Positions 1,671 to 37,415 of a stretch of 44,668 bases of DNA are shown in pieces; position 1 is the stretch's first letter; each line of letters opens with the position of its first letter. The notes under the pieces were generated by a model. That model was not told the DNA's origin. It did no database searches and saw only the letters and a list, made by a program, of their open reading frames with translations. Source of the DNA: Chloroflexota bacterium (GTDB lineage Bacteria; Chloroflexota; Anaerolineae; Anaerolineales; VGOW01); contig VGOW01000030.1 in the NCBI GenBank assembly GCA_016875735.1, forward strand, positions 1-44,668. The letters are read 5' to 3'. The translations under genes and the position numbers were made by a program.

Positions 1671-1762
1671 CAAAACTCAAACTCCCAACTCCAAATCTCA
1701 AATCCTCAAATCCTCGAACCTCAAACTGATCGCTATCCGCACCCGCTATCCGCCATTCGCTA
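1671..1762. repeat. degenerate 7-8 base tandem repeat between convergently read segments
   Basis: Units such as CTCAAAT, CTCAAAC and CGCTATC follow one another with drift, first as A/C/T-rich words and then as CGCTATCCGC words. There is no coding frame worth annotating. The same kind of heptamer text occurs in many other gaps of this window. Confidence 0.7.
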
Positions 1763-3028
1763 CCCCCCACCCGCTGGCAACCCAATGAGCACCCATGCCT
1801 TACCGTTCACATGAGTGAGGAAGACAATGCGCTCCTCATCGCCTCTGAGTTTGAGCGAGCGGGCAAACTCGGCCGGGTCGAGCGGCGAGCCGCGCTTCTT
1901 CACCGTGACCCGCCCCACGTTCATCGCCCGCAGTTTTTCGCGCAGGCGCTTCTGCGAGAAGGGCATGGCCGCTTCGATAGCGAAAGCGCGGGCGAATGGT
2001 GTGGGGGTGAGCGTGTCGGCGGTGAGGTAGGCGATGTCGGGATCGATCTGCGCCGCGTTGAGTTGCGCGGCAAGGGTGGTGACGAGTCCGGCGCGGAGGA
2101 CGGAGGGATCGGGTTCGTAGAGGTAAGCGAGGGGGAGGGTGGTTGGGTGGTTCGGTGGTTGGGTGGTTCCCACTCCGCTGTCGCTACGGGGCGCTGTCGC
2201 GGGGTGGTTGGGTGGTTGGGCGGTGAGAGAGAGGGGAGGGTGGCGAGGGCTGAGGAGAGTGGCGCGGCGGGCGGTTGTTTTCAATTCTCCGAACCACAGG
2301 ACGCATTCTTTCAGTTCACGGTCGAGAGAGATGAATTCGATCTCGCAATCATAATGCTCGATCTCGCTGAGATCGACGCCGGGCGATATTTTGACTCCGA
2401 GCGGCATGGGCGGCCACGTTTCGATGATCGACAGCGGCGGGTGATAACCGCGCACGGAGAAATGGCGGCGTCCACTGGCGCGGCGGCCCGGGTCGAAGAA
2501 AGCGGCCTCCACAGCGGGCGGCTTGCTTTTTGTGAGATCGGCTTCGATCAGTTTGGCCTGCAATCCGTAGGCCGAGAGATTCTCTCTGGCGAGGGCGAGA
2601 TGAAGAGGATCGATGTCGAGGGCAAAAAGTCCCCCACCCCCGGCCCCTCCCCCGTCGGGCAAAGCGCCGACAGGGGAGGGGGGTGAGGCGAGGCCGATGG
2701 TGTCGCCTCCGAGACCACAGCAGAGGTCGGCGAGGCGCGCGAACGGGGCGAAGCGCGCGGCGCGGTAGCGGCTGACGATTTCGCTGGAGGCCATTTCGAG
2801 GCCGTCGCGGGTGAAGTACATCGAGTCGGCGCGGGTGAATTTGGCGCGGGCCTTTCGCCGAAGGAGGGTGGTTTCGAGCGCGGCTTTGGCGAGATCGGAG
2901 TCGAAGTGCTTTTGCAGTTGGGTGAGCGCGGAGAGAAATGTTTCGTCGGACGGATCGAGTTCAGCCGCGCGGGCAATGGCGGCTTGGCCGAGTGGGGTGA
3001 GGAGGGTGCAAAAGGCGGGAAGGTTCAA
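1760..3028 (-). CDS. class I SAM-dependent methyltransferase with C-terminal THUMP-like domain
   Basis: A 422-residue protein. The SAM motif DLCCGLGGDT is at residues 101-110 and the catalytic-region FFDPGRR at 177-183. The C-terminal third, with LREKLRAMNVGRVTVKKRG, matches the THUMP-like domain found behind RNA-cap-guanine-N2-methyltransferase-like enzymes; RNA is the likely target. The start is a TTG: the same frame contains the TAA of the 59-residue gene three codons upstream, so translation is probably coupled. Two stretches do not belong to the fold: residues about 115-133, encoded by a GC-rich palindrome, and 270-297, encoded by an octamer-flanked repeat also present in the FecR gene. 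Confidence 0.85.
   Translation of the reverse strand: MNLPAFCTLLTPLGQAAIARAAELDPSDETFLSALTQLQKHFDSDLAKAALETTLLRRKARAKFTRADSMYFTRDGLEMASSEIVSRYRAARFAPFARLADLCCGLGGDTIGLASPPSPVGALPDGGGAGGGGLFALDIDPLHLALARENLSAYGLQAKLIEADLTKSKPPAVEAAFFDPGRRASGRRHFSVRGYHPPLSIIETWPPMPLGVKISPGVDLSEIEHYDCEIEFISLDRELKECVLWFGELKTTARRATLLSPRHPPLSLTAQPPNHPATAPRSDSGVGTTQPPNHPTTLPLAYLYEPDPSVLRAGLVTTLAAQLNAAQIDPDIAYLTADTLTPTPFARAFAIEAAMPFSQKRLREKLRAMNVGRVTVKKRGSPLDPAEFARSLKLRGDEERIVFLTHVNGKAWVLIGLPAGGG
2138..2220 (-). repeat. in-frame dispersed repeat inside the methyltransferase gene, copy A
   Basis: AACCACCC-type octamers flank a core encoding NHPATAPRSDS. The unit is found again at 6359-6430. Over 60 aligned bases from the AAC of NHP, 53 are identical, and both copies are read in the same frame and orientation. 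It adds about 28 residues between two parts of the protein. Confidence 0.8.
2644..2681. repeat. in-frame GC-rich palindrome inside the methyltransferase gene
   Basis: The left arm starts CCCCTCCCCCGTCGG and the right arm is nearly its complement (CCGACAGGGGAGGGG), with one mismatch. It lies just behind the SAM-binding motif and encodes a Pro/Gly-rich insert. Similar C-run/G-run palindromes occur at 6172-6204 and 22241-22285. Confidence 0.75.
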
Positions 3029-3037
3029 TCGCCGCGA

Positions 3038-3217
3038 TTACATTTTGACTGCTTTCACCAGCCTCACGAATTCCTCGAACTCTTCTTTGAAGAAGTGCAG
3101 AGTCACTTTGTCGAGCTCGACGTGATACGTCGTCTCGCCGTCGAACTCTTCGGCGATGTAGATCACGTAGTTGTCGGTTTCGGAGAGAACGGGGGTTTGG
3201 GAATCGTTAGTGTTCAT
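3038..3217 (-). CDS. small acidic protein of 59 residues
   Basis: The frame runs from an ATG at 3217 to TAA. The product begins MNTNDSQTPVLSE and contains VIYIAEEFDGETTYHVELDK followed by a KEEFEEFVRL helix. It looks like a compact alpha/beta protein with no signal peptide or membrane segment. It sits 10 bases behind the DUF4230 gene and 9 bases ahead of the TTG of the methyltransferase, so the three form a tight operon. No function is recognised. Codon choice and the GC-rich third positions are those of a real gene. Confidence 0.7.
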   Translation of the reverse strand: MNTNDSQTPVLSETDNYVIYIAEEFDGETTYHVELDKVTLHFFKEEFEEFVRLVKAVKM

Positions 3218-3227
3218 CGTTCATCCT

Positions 3228-3911
3228 TCACTTCGTCGGCGTGGCGCGCACGAAGGTTACATCGGTGTAGCCGAGCGAGGCCAGCAGCTGCCGCAGGTAG
3301 GCTTCGGCGCTCATTTGCGCCTGATCCAAAACTCCGGCTTCCAGCGCGGCGGCTTCGATTTCATGTTGCGCCTCCTGCCGCGCTTCGGTTTCTAAATTGA
3401 TATTGCCTTTGGTCAGCAAACCTGTTTCGCGATCCACCACATACGATTTATCGTTGTCGATGTTCGTCACCAGCACTTCGGGCGCGGGCAGAACCACGAA
3501 CGCTTTGCCGTCCGGCAGAACGCTCACATCGCCCACCGCCATTTTGCCCAGATCGATCCCGGCAATGACCGTGCCGTGCGCCACAAAAATGATGCGGTCG
3601 CCGAACAACGCGCCGAGCGCGCCCTGCCCCTGCTCTTTGATGATCACCTTTTCGATCACGAACTGTGACGACTCAAGCCGGGCTATCGAGCGGATGGCAA
3701 CCACCACCGCCTCCCCACTGGGGAGCGGAGTGGGCGTGGGCGGCAGAATCACCGCCACCGATGTGGCCACCGTGTTGCCCGCTTCCACCGCAGGCTGGGC
3801 CGCGTCGCGCACTGCTGTCACCAATCCGTAGCCAGTGAGCGCGGCGATGATGAGCAGACCGATGACGAGCAGAGCCTTCAATGAATCGGACACTGCGGTA
3901 TTGTACCTCAT
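3228..3911 (-). CDS. DUF4230 family membrane-anchored protein
   Basis: A 227-residue protein with one N-terminal membrane segment (about residues 10-32, LKALLVIGLLIIAALTGYGL). It then has a Pro/Thr-rich linker and the DUF4230 domain, marked by SSQFVIEKVI, an FVAHGTVIAGIDLGKM stretch and LPAPEVLVTNID. A Glu/Ala-rich helix and a C-terminal YLRQLLASLGYTDVTFV follow. The bulk should lie outside the membrane. The ATG at 3911 was chosen because the longer frame has no hydrophobic or family-like sequence. First gene of a minus-strand operon; the 42-bp divergent gap to DUF503 holds the promoters. Confidence 0.8.
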   Translation of the reverse strand: MRYNTAVSDSLKALLVIGLLIIAALTGYGLVTAVRDAAQPAVEAGNTVATSVAVILPPTPTPLPSGEAVVVAIRSIARLESSQFVIEKVIIKEQGQGALGALFGDRIIFVAHGTVIAGIDLGKMAVGDVSVLPDGKAFVVLPAPEVLVTNIDNDKSYVVDRETGLLTKGNINLETEARQEAQHEIEAAALEAGVLDQAQMSAEAYLRQLLASLGYTDVTFVRATPTK

Positions 3912-3938
3912 CCATATTTCCCCGCCCCGTTCACTCTC

Positions 3939-3947
3939 TGCTAAAAT
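3939..3947 (+). promoter_or_regulatory. extended -10 promoter of the DUF503 gene, predicted leaderless
   Basis: TGCTAAAAT, an extended -10 (TGn plus TAAAAT), ends 6 bases before the ATG at 3954. Initiation about 7 bases after the -10 would fall on the start codon itself. No Shine-Dalgarno is present. Confidence 0.6.
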
Positions 3948-3953
3948 CACCCT

Positions 3954-4238
3954 ATGATCATCGGCGCGTGCGCGGTTCGCCTGCATTTGCCGGGCGCCCT
4001 CTCGCTCAAAGAAAAACGCGGGCGCATCAAACCCATCCTCGCCCGCCTGCCCAAGGAATTCAACCTCGCCGCCGCCGAGATCGATCTGCAGGATGTGTGG
4101 CAGACCGCCGAGATCGGTTTGGTCACGGTGTCCAACGACGCCGGGCTGGCGCAAAGCCTGCTCGAAAAATCCGTGCGCTGGATCGAACACAACGCCCCCG
4201 ATGTGGAAGTGGAAGATTATAGGATTGAGATTCGATGA
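3954..4238 (+). CDS. DUF503 family protein (YlxP-like)
   Basis: A 94-residue protein of the usual length for DUF503. It has the typical opening MIIGACAVRLHLPGALSLKEKRG region, then DVWQTAEIGLVTVSND and VEVEDYRIEIR. In other bacteria ylxP is found beside nusA, infB and rbfA; here it stands alone and divergent from DUF4230. The biochemical role is not established. Start decided by family length and by the promoter directly in front. Confidence 0.88.
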   Translation: MIIGACAVRLHLPGALSLKEKRGRIKPILARLPKEFNLAAAEIDLQDVWQTAEIGLVTVSNDAGLAQSLLEKSVRWIEHNAPDVEVEDYRIEIR

Positions 4239-4239
4239 T

Positions 4240-4286
4240 AGAAGTCAGAGGTTAGATTTCCTCCGACTTCTGACTTCTGACTCCTC
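4240..4286. repeat. heptamer hairpin between DUF503 and the cyclase gene
   Basis: AGAAGTCAGAGG on the left can pair with the right side CCTCCGACTTCTGACTTCT, which is built of the 7-base unit GACTTCT. The block fills nearly the whole gap. The same GACTTCT unit recurs at about 18850-18866. Confidence 0.65.
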
Positions 4287-4288
4287 CC

Positions 4289-5866
4289 ATGCGGCGCCGC
4301 CTCCTCCTCACCTTCACCCTTCGCTCCACTGCGCTGGCGCTCGTCGTCGTCATTGCCATTTCGTTCGCGGCGCTCATCGGCCTCTTCGAGTTCCTCGAGG
4401 TCAAAGCCATCGACGCCGCCTTTGCCCTGCGCGGCCCGCTCCCGCCCACCGCGCCCATCGTCATCGTCGCCATCGACGACGAATCGTTTGCCCAAACGCA
4501 ATTGCAGTGGCCGTGGCCGCGCGCCTACATGGCCCAACTCATCTCCCAAATCGCCGCCGGAAAACCCAAAGTGATCACCACCGACATTTTTTGGTACGAG
4601 CCCGGAAACGACCCCGGCGGCGATGAGGCCTTGGCGAAAGCCATCGCCGAAGCGGGCAACGTGATTCTGGCGAACGACATCAACCGCGTGGAGCAGGCTG
4701 GTTTCGTGCTCGATCAATTCCGCCGCCCCATCCCCGCGCTCGAAGATTCTGCACTGCACACCGGCCTCGCCAATCTCTACCGTGATCCCGCCGACGGCTT
4801 CATCCGGCAAATGCCTGTGTATCTCATCAACGAGCCCGACGGGCGAGCCTACTTTTCGTGGGCGGCCCTCACCACTCTCACTTATCTCGGCGCGTCCATC
4901 CCAGAATCCATTCGCCCGTCCTCCGTGCAATTCGGCGGCATCACCGTGCCGCTCACCGAAGGCCGCCTCATCGTCAACTATCGCGGCAAGCCCGGCTCGG
5001 CCTTCACCCAAATCCAAGCCTATCAAGTCGCCAGCGGCGAAGTGTATCAACAGCGCGGCCCCGATTTCTTTCGAGACAAGATCGTGCTCATCGGCGCGAC
5101 GAGCGTGGTTCTGCAGGATGTGTACTCCACGCCCTTCGAGGGCAGCCGCCTGCCCATGCCCGGCGTCGAAGTGAACGCGCACGTCATCGACACTCTCCTC
5201 AGTCAGCAATTCATTTACCGCTGGCCGGTCATTCTCGGCGCAGTGGTGACACTGTTCATCGGCTTGCTGGCCTATGTGTTCAGCGGCATCCCTGTGCCCT
5301 TCCTCAGCCTCACCCTCGCCTTCGGCAGTGGGCTCGGCTATCTCGGCCTGTGGGCCTTCGCCTTCAACACCCTCCGCATCGAAATGTATGTCGTCGCCCC
5401 TCTCGTCAGCCTCACCCTCGGCTACGCTGTGCCCTCGGTGGAGCGGGCCATCAGCGAGCAAGTGGAAAAGCGGCGCGTGCGCGGAATCTTCGAGCGCTTC
5501 GTCTCGCCGGAAATGGTGGAGCAAATGATCGACCGCGGACTCGAAGCGGTGCGCGGACAACGCGCCGAACTCACCATCATGTTCTCCGACATTCGCGGCT
5601 TCACCACCCTCTCCGAGCAAATGTCGCCCGACGACGTGGTGGCGATTCTCAATGAGTATCTCGGCGTCATGTCCGATGTCATCCACCGGCACGGCGGCAC
5701 CATCGACAAATACGAAGGCGATCTGATCATGGCCTTCTTCAATGCGCCCCTGCCCCAGTCCGATCACGCCAAACGCGCTTTGCAAGCGGCCATCGAAAAT
5801 GCGCTTCACTCTCGACAAACTGCGGGCCAAGTGGGCCAAACAGGGAAGCCGCCCCACCCAGTTTGA
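4289..5866 (+). CDS. CHASE2-domain class III adenylate/guanylate cyclase, first part (frameshifted)
   Basis: The intact reading gives an N-terminal membrane helix (residues ~10-35), an extracytoplasmic CHASE2 sensor domain (~40-300, with IVAIDDESFAQ and FRDKIVLIGATS), three membrane helices (~310-380) and the start of a class III nucleotide cyclase domain. Its metal-binding segment is FSDIRGFTTLSEQM near residue 430, followed by KYEGDLIMAFFNAP. After AALQ the frame departs from the family at a run of four A (5796-5799); the rest of the cyclase continues one frame away to 6170. One base less would give a single protein of about 625 residues. The product would make cAMP or cGMP from an external signal. 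Confidence 0.85.
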   Translation: MRRRLLLTFTLRSTALALVVVIAISFAALIGLFEFLEVKAIDAAFALRGPLPPTAPIVIVAIDDESFAQTQLQWPWPRAYMAQLISQIAAGKPKVITTDIFWYEPGNDPGGDEALAKAIAEAGNVILANDINRVEQAGFVLDQFRRPIPALEDSALHTGLANLYRDPADGFIRQMPVYLINEPDGRAYFSWAALTTLTYLGASIPESIRPSSVQFGGITVPLTEGRLIVNYRGKPGSAFTQIQAYQVASGEVYQQRGPDFFRDKIVLIGATSVVLQDVYSTPFEGSRLPMPGVEVNAHVIDTLLSQQFIYRWPVILGAVVTLFIGLLAYVFSGIPVPFLSLTLAFGSGLGYLGLWAFAFNTLRIEMYVVAPLVSLTLGYAVPSVERAISEQVEKRRVRGIFERFVSPEMVEQMIDRGLEAVRGQRAELTIMFSDIRGFTTLSEQMSPDDVVAILNEYLGVMSDVIHRHGGTIDKYEGDLIMAFFNAPLPQSDHAKRALQAAIENALHSRQTAGQVGQTGKPPHPV

Positions 5867-6170
5867 AATGGGAATCGGCCTCAACACCGGCGATGCCTTC
5901 GTCGGCCTCGTCGGCTCCGCAAAACGAATCAACTACACCTGCATCGGCGACAGCGTCAACCTTGCCTCGCGCGTGCAGGACCTGACCAAAGACCTGAAGT
6001 GGCCGCTGCTCATCACCGAACACACCCACGAGAAAATCAAAGACCACTTCGATTGCGAGTTTGCCGAAGCGCGAATGGTGAAAGGCAAAAGCAAACCCGT
6101 CGGCATCTACCGTGTGCTGGGCCGCAAAGGCGCGCCCGACTCCGAGCGCATCCGCCCGCTCTTCCAATGA
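5799..6170 (+). CDS. cyclase catalytic domain, second part after the frameshift
   Basis: This frame, from the ATG at 5799, supplies the missing half of the cyclase domain: MRFTLDKLRAKW, then FEMGIGLNTGDAFVGLVGS and CIGDSVNLASRVQDL, the segments that bind ribose and transition state in class III cyclases. It then has LITEHTHEKI and a C-terminal YRVLGRKG. Both parts are well conserved, so the break is recent, a sequencing error or, least likely, a second cistron with its own start. It should be read together with 4289-5866 as one gene. Confidence 0.75.
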   Translation: MRFTLDKLRAKWAKQGSRPTQFEMGIGLNTGDAFVGLVGSAKRINYTCIGDSVNLASRVQDLTKDLKWPLLITEHTHEKIKDHFDCEFAEARMVKGKSKPVGIYRVLGRKGAPDSERIRPLFQ

Positions 6171-6171
6171 T

Positions 6172-6204
6172 CCTTCCCCTGTTTGCGGAGCAAACGGGGG
6201 AAGG
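6172..6204. repeat. GC-rich palindrome behind the cyclase gene
   Basis: Arms of 15 bases, CCTTCCCCTGTTTGC and its complement with one G-T, are separated by GGA. It starts one base after the stop codon. It lacks a T-run, so it is not a standard terminator. It belongs with the C-run/G-run palindromes found inside genes at 2644-2681 and 22241-22285. Confidence 0.75.
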
Positions 6205-6225
6205 GCAGGGATAGGGGTCTCGACT

Positions 6226-7191
6226 ATGATCCGCCCCCACCGATCCACCCTCTCACTGTTGATCATCCTTTCCGCATTCACCGCCTGCGTCACTCGCCCT
6301 GCGACACAAAGTGCCACCCCCGCCCCTCCTCCCGCCGGGACTCCGACTCTCGCCCCCTCCCAACCATCCAACCACCCCGCGACAGCGCCCCGTAGCGATA
6401 GCGAAGCGGGAACTACCCAACCGCCCAATCGCGCCGCCTCCATTGCCGAAATCGTCAACACCGTGCAGTCGCGCGAATCGGCGGAGTCCCAGTGGGCAAA
6501 CGCCTCCATCGGGCAAACGCTCGCCGTCGGCGGCGAAGTGCAAACTTTATCCGATGGCGAAGCCCGCATCGACATCAGCCCCGACACAATCGTTCGCATC
6601 GGCCCAAACACTCACTTCGCCCTCACCGAACTCGCCGGAACCGATTACGGCCCTCTCACTCGCCTCACGCTGGCTGTCGGCGAAATTTGGGTGGCGCTCA
6701 ACTCGGCGCTCAACGGCGGCTCATTCGAGGTGGAGACTCCGGTGGGATCGGCGTCGGTGCGCGGCTCGTACATCAGTGTGGATTACGACGCCGTCTCCGA
6801 CAGCCTCATCGTGTCGTGCCTCGAAGGCAGCTGCATTTTGCGAAACGAGTTCGGGCTTGTGGATTTGATCGCCGGGCAAGAAACTTTCATCACCCGCCGG
6901 GGCCTGCCGCCCGAAGCGCCGCGCCCCATGGATCCCGACCGGCTCGAACGCTGGCAGAGATTCATGCGCGAAGCCCGGCCCCTCATCGAGCCGGTCCGCA
7001 CACAACTCGCTCCGTTGTGGGTGGAACCGGCGTTCATCGCCACCCGCGCCGCGCAAATGACTCTCGTCCCGCGCCCGCGCCTGCTCACGCCCGGCTTCAT
7101 CGAAACCCTCGCCGCCGAGCGCACCCCGATCATCGAACGGACGCCGCTGATCACCCTCGCGCCGGGCGTCATCCGCACCCGCCGCCCATGA
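6226..7191 (+). CDS. FecR-domain lipoprotein
   Basis: 321 residues. A short lipoprotein signal (LLIILSAFTAC, Cys21) is followed by a Pro/Thr-rich linker. A FecR domain follows (about 75-240): QTLAVGGEVQTLSDGEARIDI, TIVRIGPNTHFAL, GEIWVAL, then FEVETPVGSASVRGSYI and SLIVSCLEGSCIL. Such domains are found as extracytoplasmic sensors or surface proteins; no sigma factor lies nearby, so a FecIR circuit is not supported. Residues about 45-68 come from the dispersed repeat shared with the methyltransferase gene. The ATG at 6226 was chosen because it gives the signal peptide. Its stop overlaps the next start as ATGA. Confidence 0.8.
   Translation: MIRPHRSTLSLLIILSAFTACVTRPATQSATPAPPPAGTPTLAPSQPSNHPATAPRSDSEAGTTQPPNRAASIAEIVNTVQSRESAESQWANASIGQTLAVGGEVQTLSDGEARIDISPDTIVRIGPNTHFALTELAGTDYGPLTRLTLAVGEIWVALNSALNGGSFEVETPVGSASVRGSYISVDYDAVSDSLIVSCLEGSCILRNEFGLVDLIAGQETFITRRGLPPEAPRPMDPDRLERWQRFMREARPLIEPVRTQLAPLWVEPAFIATRAAQMTLVPRPRLLTPGFIETLAAERTPIIERTPLITLAPGVIRTRRP
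6359..6430 (+). repeat. in-frame dispersed repeat inside the FecR gene, copy B
   Basis: Core NHPATAPRSDS with octamer-type CCAACC flanks, the same unit as at 2138-2220. It is in the same orientation relative to the gene and in the same reading frame. Here it lies in the flexible linker behind the lipid anchor, where an insertion would be harmless. Confidence 0.8.
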
Positions 7192-7526
7192 AGGCAAAGA
7201 AACTCTTTCGTTGGTTCGGCTACATGTCCCTCTTGCTTCTGTGGCTCGTCGTCATGCTCGCGCCGTGTTTCGCCTTCGCCCTCGCCGCGCGCGGCGAACT
7301 TTCATGGCAACACACTGAATACGACAGCGACCGTATCTGGCTGGTGCAGGAGCGGGATCAAAAGGGAATCGGCTACCACGCCGTGCGAATGACGGGCGGT
7401 GACCCTGTGTGCATCCGCAACAGCGTGCGCTTCTTTTTGTGGGAAGGATCGGCGGAAGGACAGAGCGCCGATTACTGCGAATGCCTTGCGGCGGACGGAA
7501 CATCGGCGGCCACTGAGTGCCCCTGA
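7188..7526 (+). CDS. small membrane-anchored or exported protein
   Basis: 112 residues, starting inside the FecR stop (ATGA), hence translationally coupled. One strong hydrophobic helix (residues 12-33, SLLLLWLVVMLAPCFAFALAA) is followed by a soluble part with ELSWQHTEYDSDRIWLVQERDQ, GIGYHAVRM and a cluster of Cys (Cys75, 97, 99, 111). The Cys content suggests disulfides outside the cell. No family is recognised. Coupling to FecR suggests a joint surface role. Confidence 0.7.
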   Translation: MKAKKLFRWFGYMSLLLLWLVVMLAPCFAFALAARGELSWQHTEYDSDRIWLVQERDQKGIGYHAVRMTGGDPVCIRNSVRFFLWEGSAEGQSADYCECLAADGTSAATECP

Positions 7527-7577
7527 CCACCCGACCACTCGACCATTCGACCATTCGACCACTTGACCGCTCGGCCA
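7527..7577. repeat. 8-base tandem repeat (CGACCATT type)
   Basis: About six drifting units of the form CGACCATT or CGACCACT directly follow the stop codon of the preceding gene. It is related in style to the AACCACCC octamers at 2138-2220 and 16606-16625. Confidence 0.75.
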
Positions 7578-7583
7578 CCTCAT

Positions 7584-16594: not shown

Positions 16595-16625
16595 CCTCCT
16601 CCTAACCACCCAACCACCCAACCAC

Positions 16626-18698
16626 CTATTCCTCTTCCTTGCCCTTTTCCTTCTTGGCCGCCGCAATAATCTGCTGGGTCAAGTGAGTCGGCACCACTTC
16701 GTGCCGCAGGTAATTCATCGAGAACACACCGCGCCCCTGTGTGATGGATCGCAGATCGGTCACGTAACGCATCATCTCGGCCATCGGCACTTCCGCCGTC
16801 ACCACGCTCTTGCCGCTGTCCTGCTCCATGCCCTGCACCCGCGCTCGCTTCGTGTTCAAATCGCTCAACACATCGCCCATGTTCGATTCGGGCACGGTGA
16901 TCTGCACCTGCATGATCGGCTCCAACAGCACCGGCCCGGCGTCGTTCACCGCCAACTTGAATGCCTCGCGCCCGGCGATCTCGAACGCAATCGGCTTCGA
17001 ATCAACTTCGTGCATCTTGCCGTCGTACACAATCACCTTCACATTGCCCATCGGGTAACCGGCAATCACGCCCTGCTCCAGCGTGGCCTTGATGCCCTTC
17101 TCTATCGGCGGCAGGTACGACTTGGAAAGATTCATGCCCACCAATTCATCGTCGAACTCGAACTCGGCCTCTTTCAACGGCTCGATGCGCAGATGCACTT
17201 CGCCGAACTGCCCCGCGCCGCCGGTCTGCTTCTTGTGCCGATACTGCGCCTGGCTCTTGCGGGTGATCGACTCGCGGTACGGCACCTTCGGCGTTTCGGT
17301 GAGGATGCCCGCGCCGAACTTCGACTCGGCCCGGCGGATGGCAACGTCGATGTGCTGATCGCCCATGCCTTCGAGCAACGTTTGCTTCGTGGATGACTCG
17401 GTGCGCCAATGGAGAGTCAAATCCTCTTCGCACAACTTAGTGAGCGTCGGCCCCAGTTTCGTCGCGTCGGCCTGAGTCTTGGGGTGAACGGCCACCGAGT
17501 ACAGCGCCGCCGGGTACGCGGGCATGGGCAGTTTGATCGGATGGGTTTTGTCGCCGAGCGTGTCGCCCGTCGTGGTGGCGTTCAGTTTCGCCACCGTGCA
17601 CAGATCGCCCGCGTGCAGCTGCTTCACCGAAATCTGCTCTTTGCCGCGCATCACGTGCAGGGTGCCCAGCCGCTCTTCCGCGCCCTTGCTGTGATTCCAC
17701 ACCCGCGTATCGGAACTGAGCACACCAGAATACACGCGGAGGTAAGTCATCTTGCCCACAAACGGATCGGCGGTCGTCTTGAACGCATAAGCCGAGAGCG
17801 CGGCAGTATCGGCGGCGGCCACTTCCTCATCGCCGCCCTTGCCCTCGCCGTGCGGAACCGGGATCTCGGTGGGCGAAGGCATGTAGCGAGTGATCGCTTC
17901 GAGGATCGGAACGATGCCGATGTTGCCGGTGGCCGAAGCCACCAACACCGGCACGAACGTGCCGTTGTCCACCGCTCGCTTGAAGCCGTGTTTGATCTCG
18001 TCGTTGGTCAACTCTTCGCCGCCGAGATATTTTTCCAGCAGGGCATCTTCGCCTTCGGCGGCGGCTTCCATCATGGCAATGTGAGCAGCGTTCGCCGCTT
18101 CGATGTATTCGGGGGGAATGTCGGCAACTTCGCCCTTGGCGCCCTTGCGCCCTTTCATCGAAAGGATGCCGATGGCGCCCTTGAAGTCGTGCTTCTCGCC
18201 CCACGGCAACTGCACCGGCACCAGTTTGGTGTTCTTCGAAAGCGCTTGCACCGATTCCAGCGCGCGCTGGAAGTTGGCGTTCTCGCGATCCATTTTGTTG
18301 ATGACCACGAAGCGAGGCAGTTTGAGTTCATCGCAATACTGCCACACCAATTCGGTGCCCACTTCCACCCCGGCCACCGCGTCCACCAGAACAATGGCCG
18401 CGTCGGCCACGCGCAGCGCGCTCTTCACTTCACCCACAAAGTCGGTGAAGCCCGGCGTGTCTAAAATATTGACTTTGTGGTTGTCGAATTCCAGAGCGAT
18501 GAGAGAAGTGCTCACCGAAATTTTGCGGCGCTGTTCCTCGTCGTCGAAGTCCGAAGTCGTCGTTCCATCTTCGATCTTGCCGAGACGGGTGGCGGCCCCG
18601 GTGTTGTAAAGCATCGCTTCGACCAGCGAGGTCTTGCCCGACCCGAGGTGCCCGACCAAAGCGACATTTCTAATGCTCTCTGTTCCATGCTCTTTCAT
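16626..18698 (-). CDS. elongation factor G-like GTPase (paralogous EF-G)
   Basis: 690 residues with the full five-domain EF-G plan. The GTPase motifs deviate from canonical EF-G: P-loop GHLGSGKT (16-23), switch II DTPGFTDF (80-87) instead of DTPGHVDF, and NKMD at 134-137. The catalytic His of the translocase is therefore replaced by Phe. Domain II-V marks include GDLCTVAKL, GMGDQHIDVAIRR, the loop SKSYLPPIEKGIKATLEQG and YVTDLRSITQGRGVF. This type is an EF-G paralogue rather than the main translocase; a housekeeping fusA beside rpsG/tuf is not in the window. Strong promoter and AGGAGG upstream. Confidence 0.9.
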   Translation of the reverse strand: MKEHGTESIRNVALVGHLGSGKTSLVEAMLYNTGAATRLGKIEDGTTTSDFDDEEQRRKISVSTSLIALEFDNHKVNILDTPGFTDFVGEVKSALRVADAAIVLVDAVAGVEVGTELVWQYCDELKLPRFVVINKMDRENANFQRALESVQALSKNTKLVPVQLPWGEKHDFKGAIGILSMKGRKGAKGEVADIPPEYIEAANAAHIAMMEAAAEGEDALLEKYLGGEELTNDEIKHGFKRAVDNGTFVPVLVASATGNIGIVPILEAITRYMPSPTEIPVPHGEGKGGDEEVAAADTAALSAYAFKTTADPFVGKMTYLRVYSGVLSSDTRVWNHSKGAEERLGTLHVMRGKEQISVKQLHAGDLCTVAKLNATTTGDTLGDKTHPIKLPMPAYPAALYSVAVHPKTQADATKLGPTLTKLCEEDLTLHWRTESSTKQTLLEGMGDQHIDVAIRRAESKFGAGILTETPKVPYRESITRKSQAQYRHKKQTGGAGQFGEVHLRIEPLKEAEFEFDDELVGMNLSKSYLPPIEKGIKATLEQGVIAGYPMGNVKVIVYDGKMHEVDSKPIAFEIAGREAFKLAVNDAGPVLLEPIMQVQITVPESNMGDVLSDLNTKRARVQGMEQDSGKSVVTAEVPMAEMMRYVTDLRSITQGRGVFSMNYLRHEVVPTHLTQQIIAAAKKEKGKEEE

Positions 18699-34923: not shown

Positions 34924-35033
34924 GGCGGTTCGCTCGCGCGTTGAGGGTGCGGCGCTCTTGCACAGGAGCCCGCGCGCGGCGATTGATCGCCGCGCTAACA
35001 TCACGAAGCCCGCTTAAGCGGGCTTTGTTTTTT
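34799..35033 (+). repeat. inverted ~235-bp copy of the 281-515 region
   Basis: This stretch and the minus strand of 281-515 agree at roughly nine bases in ten by eye. The match covers the 3' end of the phosphoribosyltransferase gene, the downstream spacer and the double-hairpin terminator to its T-run. The copies face each other across 34 kb. Confidence 0.85.
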
Positions 35034-35058
35034 TTAGCCCGATGATTTATCATCGGGC
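34974..35058 (+). repeat. REP cluster (three hairpins) before mod
   Basis: Hairpin 1 (34974-34995): GCGCGGCGA, TTGA loop, perfect complement. Hairpin 2 (35006-35025): AAGCCCGCTTAAGCGGGCTT, followed by TTGTTTTTTTT, so a terminator for anything upstream. Hairpin 3 (35037-35058): stem GCCCGATGA with loop TTTA, 5 bases before the mod ATG. Spacing between units is about 10 bases. The same units recur around the transposase gene. Confidence 0.85.
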
Positions 35059-35063
35059 GCATC

Positions 35064-36742: not shown

Positions 36743-36869
36743 CGCCGATGATCAGTCGTCGGGCTAAAATGGCGAAGCCCGCTTAAGCGGGCTTGGATCC
36801 ATCAGCCCGATGGTTGACCAGCGGGCGAAACAAACCTATAGGCCGCTCCGATGATTGACTGTCGAGCGG
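36743..36869 (+). repeat. REP cluster between mod and the transposase gene
   Basis: Four hairpins in 127 bases: about 36743-36764 (GCCGATGA/TCGTCGGGC), 36775-36794 (AAGCCCGCTTAAGCGGGCTT), 36805-36826 (GCCCGATGG, TTGA, CCAGCGGGC) and 36843-36869 (CCGCTCCGA ... TCGAGCGG). Order and 10-base spacing match the cluster behind the transposase. This could be the left end of the mobile unit. Confidence 0.85.
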
Positions 36870-36891
36870 AACAGCGCCAAACAAAGCTGCC

Positions 36892-37332
36892 ATGCCCTAC
36901 TCCCGTCTCTTTTACCATTTCGTCTGGTCAACGCACAACCGTCTGCCGCTCATCACAGAGGCTAATCGCGACCCGCTTTACGCCGCTATGCGCGCGAAAG
37001 TGACTGAGTTAGGCGGCCTCACCCACGCGCTTAATGGGATGCCCGACCACGCCCACCTCCTCGTCACCGTGCCGCCCAAGATTGCATTAGCAACGTTTAT
37101 CGGGCAAGTCAAAGGCGTCTCTTCGCATTTGGCCTCACGGTTGAGCACCGAGGCCTTTGCTTGGCAACGCGAGTATGGCGTTCTATCACTGTCGGAGTCG
37201 CATCTGCCAACGGTGGTGCGGTATGTGGTCGAGCAACAAAAACATCATGCGGAGAATAGCGTGGATGAACGGCTGGAGCGGTGGGGTGGTGATAATGCCC
37301 CACCACAGCCCGACGATTCATCGTTGGGCTGA
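36892..37332 (+). mobile_element. IS200-like Y1 transposase, REP-associated type (RAYT-like)
   Basis: 146 residues. The HUH metal motif is HAH at 53-55 (MPDHAHLLV) and the catalytic Tyr is Y111 with Gln115 in VVRYVVEQQKHHAEN, the order of Y1 transposases that cut single-stranded DNA at hairpins. The opening YSRLFYHFVWSTHNRLPLI is typical. No tnpB is present. It is bracketed by REP hairpins on both sides, and the first hairpin downstream (37308-37329) encodes its last residues. It lies on the same strand between mod and res. RAYT-like is inferred from the REP context; a plain IS200 copy is the alternative. Confidence 0.88.
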
Positions 37333-37390
37333 AACAGCGAAGCCCGCTTAAGCGGGTTTGGTTCAATTGCCCGATGGTTGACCATCGGGC
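37308..37390 (+). repeat. REP cluster between the transposase gene and res
   Basis: Hairpins at 37308-37329 (GCCCGACGA, TTCA, TCGTTGGGC), 37340-37359 (AAGCCCGCTTAAGCGGGTTT) and 37369-37390 (GCCCGATGG, TTGA, CCATCGGGC, perfect). The first overlaps the 3' end of the transposase gene; the last ends 25 bases before the res ATG. Confidence 0.85.
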
Positions 37391-37415
37391 GAAAGCCGGA
37401 ATACGAAAGACGCTT

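Follow-up and report, generated by a model that had tools for sequence, protein, structure and literature searches.

A 33-bp Core Inserted at a Fixed Point of Octamer Arrays Behaves Like a Very Small Dispersed Element in an Anaerolineales Genome

The 44,668-nucleotide contig VGOW01000030.1 of a Chloroflexota bacterium (assembly GCA_016875735.1), analyzed here over its full length and referred to below as the window, carries two copies of a short repeat inside two unrelated protein genes. At the center of this repeat is a 33-bp core, which interrupts a dispersed octamer array and whose behavior resembles that of a jumping DNA element, among the smallest known. Of the readings considered, we lean toward the core being a dispersed element of very small size (33 bp in this genome, 31 bp in sister species), copies of which have been placed as discrete modules at fixed positions within other repeats, and a micro-element resembling the small dispersed repeats (SDRs) of cyanobacteria best fits the observations.

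Anatomy of the Repeat

In the window, the 70-base units at 2150–2219 (minus strand, in a methyltransferase open reading frame (ORF)) and 6360–6429 (plus strand, in the ORF of a FecR lipoprotein) are identical at 62/70 bases, with 55/60 in the best 60-base stretch, and both encode the peptide NHPATAPRSDS (residues 274–284 of the methyltransferase and 49–59 of the lipoprotein) in the same codon phase. This confirms the original prediction that the two units share their orientation and frame relative to these genes. A search of the window with a 20-base core pattern, allowing ≤3 mismatches, returned two matches, both exact, compared to 0.02 expected in shuffled windows, which excludes chance as the origin of the two copies. 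In the methyltransferase, the insert precedes the ferredoxin-like and THUMP-like domains; in the lipoprotein, it separates the signal peptide from the FecR domain (Table 1).

The source genome (G000) is a 4.15-Mb Anaerolineales metagenome-assembled genome of 150 contigs, of which the window is contig C30. It contains 14 copies of the core, two of them in the window, so that the further copies that a mobile repeat was expected to have, and whose absence was to count against one, do exist. The core is exactly 33 bp long in 14/14 copies and interrupts the array after the second base of the octamer (CC^AACCAC) in every one of them; once it is removed, a near-perfect octamer array is restored, with 0–6 mismatches in 30 flanking bases. 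The octamer, CCAACCAC, is also a dispersed tandem repeat on its own, with 219 matches to two units in the source genome and 0 for a reversed control pattern. The proposed ~70-base unit is thus a real repeat but not a single one, being a composite of a 33-bp insert and a separate, far more abundant octamer repeat found genome-wide. Among four same-genus genomes examined, three contain 36, 110 and 15 two-octamer matches and the fourth contains 0; all genomes compared in this work are fragmentary and of varied completeness (63% for G001 and 76% for G004), and absences in them weigh little. We also observed a second insert in the octamers of the source genome and of G002, this one of 10 bp (AACC-CGCTGACGCG-AACC, at L103:4028, L204:3010 and L208:3039), which is possibly another micro-element.

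Octamers lie on both sides of every core copy in the same phase, and the length of the arrays is unstable, one array being three units (24 bp) longer in one of the near-identical contigs C88 and C121 than in the other. Together with the abundance of the octamers, these features are what would be expected from the main rival to a dispersed element, namely that the core entered an octamer array a single time, and that array–core–array segments have since been spread by homologous or template-switch recombination between arrays, with no mobility of the core itself. We consider this account possible but doubtful, and return to it where the evidence bears on it.

Host Genes, Orientation and Reading Frame

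By inspection, all 14 cores lie inside protein genes, and at least a dozen unrelated genes are affected. The core is in the sense orientation in 13/14 cases, the hosts being the THUMP-like methyltransferase and the FecR lipoprotein, an MBOAT protein, a class A penicillin-binding protein (in its tail), two YfhO-like membrane proteins (one of them with three cores), a polysaccharide deacetylase, a MoaD–MoaE fusion and a LytR-CpsA-Psr protein (each in a linker), an alpha/beta hydrolase, and TrmD. The only antisense core lies in a glycosyltransferase-like membrane protein. We note that the frame of the alpha/beta hydrolase host (L082:5528–6643) apparently changes in its C-terminal part, possibly due to a frameshifted gene or an assembly error.

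Genes were called using a simple coding model trained on the long ORFs of the source genome, plus inspection, and the sample of bare arrays was picked by two perfect octamers. According to this model, genic arrays are sense in 30 cases vs antisense in 1 (p = 3e-8), and arrays not scored as genic are sense to the downstream flank in 27 cases vs 7 (p = 8e-4). Read directly, the octamer contains no stops on either strand, and stops therefore do not explain this strand bias, which may reflect the hydrophilic PTTQPPNH-type peptide vs the Val/Gly/Trp-rich antisense one, or the effect of G-rich mRNA. The codon phases of the cores are phase 0 in nine cases, phase 2 in three, phase 1 in one, and antisense in one (9 vs 3, p = 0.15), such that the single favored reading frame named as support in the original prediction is not established. 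In the common core variant, phase 1 would contain an in-frame TAG; the one copy found in phase 1 carries GAAGCG instead of GTAGCG.

In the source genome, 11/13 core arrays are genic by the coding model vs 20/52 bare arrays (p = 0.004). This over-representation of cores in genes counts against passive spread with recombining arrays, but it is predicted well neither by that reading nor by a core with its own mobility; one possible reason for it is that slippage could be reduced in an interrupted array, which would hence be favored inside genes.

Orthologues Lacking the Core

Orthologues of the four hosts tested lack the core and show in its place either a clean gap that keeps the frame or, for two of the sites, octamers alone, which bears out the expectation of clean gaps in homologues. 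Neither of the two window hosts belongs to a family in which all homologues carry the peptide: the methyltransferase of G002 and of other relatives has a gap where the unit sits, and the FecR protein of G002 has CAACCACCCAACCACC (bare octamers) at the same linker, without the core. In G006, a genome from a different family, the MoaD–MoaE protein likewise has a bare octamer array and no core at the corresponding linker. From their sequences, these two bare arrays look like intermediate states in which the array came first and the core later, and such array-only sites are at odds with array and core having been spread together by recombination.

In the case of TrmD, nine aligned relatives (64–80% identical) lack residues ~86–109, with all flanking blocks conserved, which places the insert between the helix at 64–75 and the strand at 111. 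The insert is predicted to be disordered, as residues 80–104 have a predicted local distance difference test (pLDDT) score of <50 in the AlphaFold model of the source-genome protein, although this is weak support given that the mean pLDDT of the model is only 69. Other short tandem repeats lie in the same loop in G001 (GTCAGCC), G002 (AAAATCCC) and G006. Several related species each have their own short tandem repeat in the loop after residue 75 (L175–L182), as if it were a general landing site.

A 31-bp Core at Hairpin Tips in Sister Species

Searching 84,980 species genomes with the core pattern gave matches, besides the source genome, only in JACRLA01 (NC_groundwater_1869_Pr3) and CAKKQG01 (Hainich-H52-bin129), which appear to be the same-genus genomes G004 and G001, respectively. 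In these two genomes, the core is 31 bp long in 19/19 measured copies, two single bases shorter than the 33-bp form, and caps hairpins (arm length ~14–18 bp) that lie mostly outside genes, with two G001 copies apparently in frame within genes. The arms differ widely yet pair, with standard pairs in 97% of cells, and they covary, with 77 cells changed on both sides vs 4–14 when the partner was slid, while pairs within the core itself hardly vary. One arm type, CCGAAGGGT, is also found in 37 short-loop hairpins without the core in the same two genomes. A T-run follows the 3′ arm in 7/21 hairpins, and some of them may therefore be terminators.

The presence of the same core in this wholly different context, at hairpin tips with many arm sequences, is difficult to obtain by recombination between octamer arrays. 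Given that the ends and length of the core are constant, and that it occurs in two unrelated kinds of repeat among sister species, an SDR-like micro-element is the reading that we favor. A narrower version, in which the core is a mobile module specialized for genes that copies itself into the fixed octamer point, being frame-neutral here and, in its 31-bp form, mostly extragenic in the sisters, is unlikely in our view.

Comparison with Known Repeats

The closest analogues of the core are the cyanobacterial SDRs, above all SDR5 of Nostoc. The Nostoc SDRs of Elhai et al. 2008 are reportedly 21–27 nt in size and embedded in short tandem repeats, and are said to have a secondary structure backed by compensatory change and to have been recently mobile, with an RNA intermediate proposed. 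The core resembles them in being a discrete short module with exact ends and many dispersed copies (14 of 33 bp), and in being embedded in short tandem repeats; it differs in its size (33/31 nt, outside that range), its Chloroflexota host, its in-frame position inside protein genes, and its position at hairpin tips in the sister species. SDR5 is inserted between nucleotides 3 and 4 of the octamer HIP1 (PMC4390886), and the core is likewise tied to one precise nucleotide of its octamer in 14/14 copies. The octamers themselves can be compared to the heptameric G-quadruplex-type simple repeats of Xanthomonas and Nostoc, which are dispersed short tandem repeats of 7 nt whose G-rich strand, upstream of ORFs, lies opposite the coding strand (PMC4692102). 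The octamers are similarly dispersed (with a unit of 8 nt) and share this strand arrangement upstream of ORFs, but they are common inside genes.

The original prediction drew attention to the palindromic elements of Rickettsia (RPEs), which are 105–146-bp palindromes with terminal inverted repeats, and of which RPE-1 inserts in frame into unrelated, partly conserved genes and adds a peptide to their products (PMC2229807). The core shares with RPE-1 the in-frame insertion of a peptide into unrelated, partly conserved hosts whose orthologues lack it, and the hairpin form in the sister species, including the two copies apparently in frame within genes, also made this lead sensible. Close kinship is not supported, as the core is only 33 bp long, no long palindrome was found in the source genome, the position of the core is fixed in octamer arrays, and the phylum is a different one. 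Membership is thus largely refuted and very improbable, and we retain the RPEs as an analogy.

Even less probable, and also largely refuted as membership, is that the core is a GTAG-tagged repetitive extragenic palindrome (REP) moved by a REP-associated tyrosine transposase (RAYT). The core does contain GTAG, REPs are known in ORFs and in palindromes (PMC3733652), and each of the five same-genus genomes has Y1_Tnp genes. GTAG/CGTC-tagged REPs are short, as are REPINs, and can be intragenic or lie inside target palindromes, as does GTAG-23 of Thermomicrobium roseum in CCGSSCC-n-GGSSCGG (PMC3733652, PMC3116915). However, the GTAG of the core is internal (positions 15–18 of 33) rather than terminal, the core is not a self-palindrome, and G002 and G003 have Y1_Tnp yet no core at E ≤ 0.001. 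No cognate RAYT was found among the RAYT-like genes inspected (in the window, G000:C8 and G001:C175): those in C8 and C175 lie ~350 bp and 760 bp from a core copy, respectively, but, as in the window, are flanked by different palindromes of their own.

The RAYT-like Y1_Tnp gene of the window (36901–37236, plus strand) sits between what are apparently two genes of a restriction-modification system and has palindromic repeats on both sides (36745–36830 and 37310–37394), with a third cluster at 34976–35062; the region 36745–37394 is a REP/RAYT locus unrelated to the core. A resident reverse transcriptase as the mover likewise finds no support, with one weak partial RVT_1 match in the source genome and none in the two core-bearing sisters, whose genomes are incomplete. 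A viral carrier was also considered, and no exact match to the core was found in 2.9 million viral contigs.

Proposed Mechanism and Implications

In the SDR-like reading, the acceptor in the source genome would be the dispersed octamer array, located in loops and linkers of many genes and present first, into which the core would be inserted later by its own copy mechanism, whether through an RNA or single-stranded DNA intermediate or by template switching at the octamers. Insertion of the core leaves the frame unshifted because 33 is a multiple of 3, and array and core together would add a short Pro/Thr/Ser-rich linker that is probably disordered and tolerated by the host protein. The pattern of orientation and phase would then follow from selection against frame shifts, against stop codons and against the hydrophobic peptide encoded in antisense.

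Several points weigh against this reading. Presence/absence polymorphism of the core between strains was not seen, a target-site duplication is unreadable inside a repeat, and the core has no enzyme linked with it. Furthermore, the fixed insertion phase is equally expected from octamer-array recombination off one founding copy, and the relatives with bare arrays could have acquired octamers independently in that linker, or could have lost the core.

As a proposed new family of protein-coding mobile repeats, the core retains its many copies, its in-frame positions in unrelated genes and the orthologues without it, but not a strict frame preference. If the SDR-like reading is true, very small mobile repeats would extend from cyanobacteria to Chloroflexota, and could colonize conserved genes, trmD included, with in-gene tandem repeats as landing sites. 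The two contexts in sister species (octamer array in genes vs hairpin tip) would also make the movement of enzyme-less modules testable by strain comparison.

Features of the Window

Table 1. Coordinates of the cores, octamer arrays and host genes in the window
Feature	Position	Strand	Remarks
33-bp core copy 1, CGCGACAGCGCCCCGTAGCGACAGCGGAGTGGG	2169..2201	-	exact 33 bp; array perfect once core removed (0/30 mismatches)
Octamer array (CCAACCAC)n, 3′ side of core copy 1	2137..2168	-	
Octamer array, 5′ side of core copy 1	2202..2224	-	
Host gene 1, S-adenosylmethionine (SAM)-dependent methyltransferase with THUMP-like C-terminal domain	1760..3028	-	
33-bp core copy 2, CGCGACAGCGCCCCGTAGCGATAGCGAAGCGGG	6378..6410	+	
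Octamer units 5′ of core copy 2	6360..6377	+	sequence
Decayed octamer units 3′ of core copy 2	6411..6430	+	sequence
Host gene 2, lipoprotein with FecR domain (residues 105–202)	6226..7191	+	
Bare octamer array of the same dispersed repeat family, with no core	16602..16626	+	

The window also contains another octamer array of different sequence, (GACCACTC)n, at 7525–7578.
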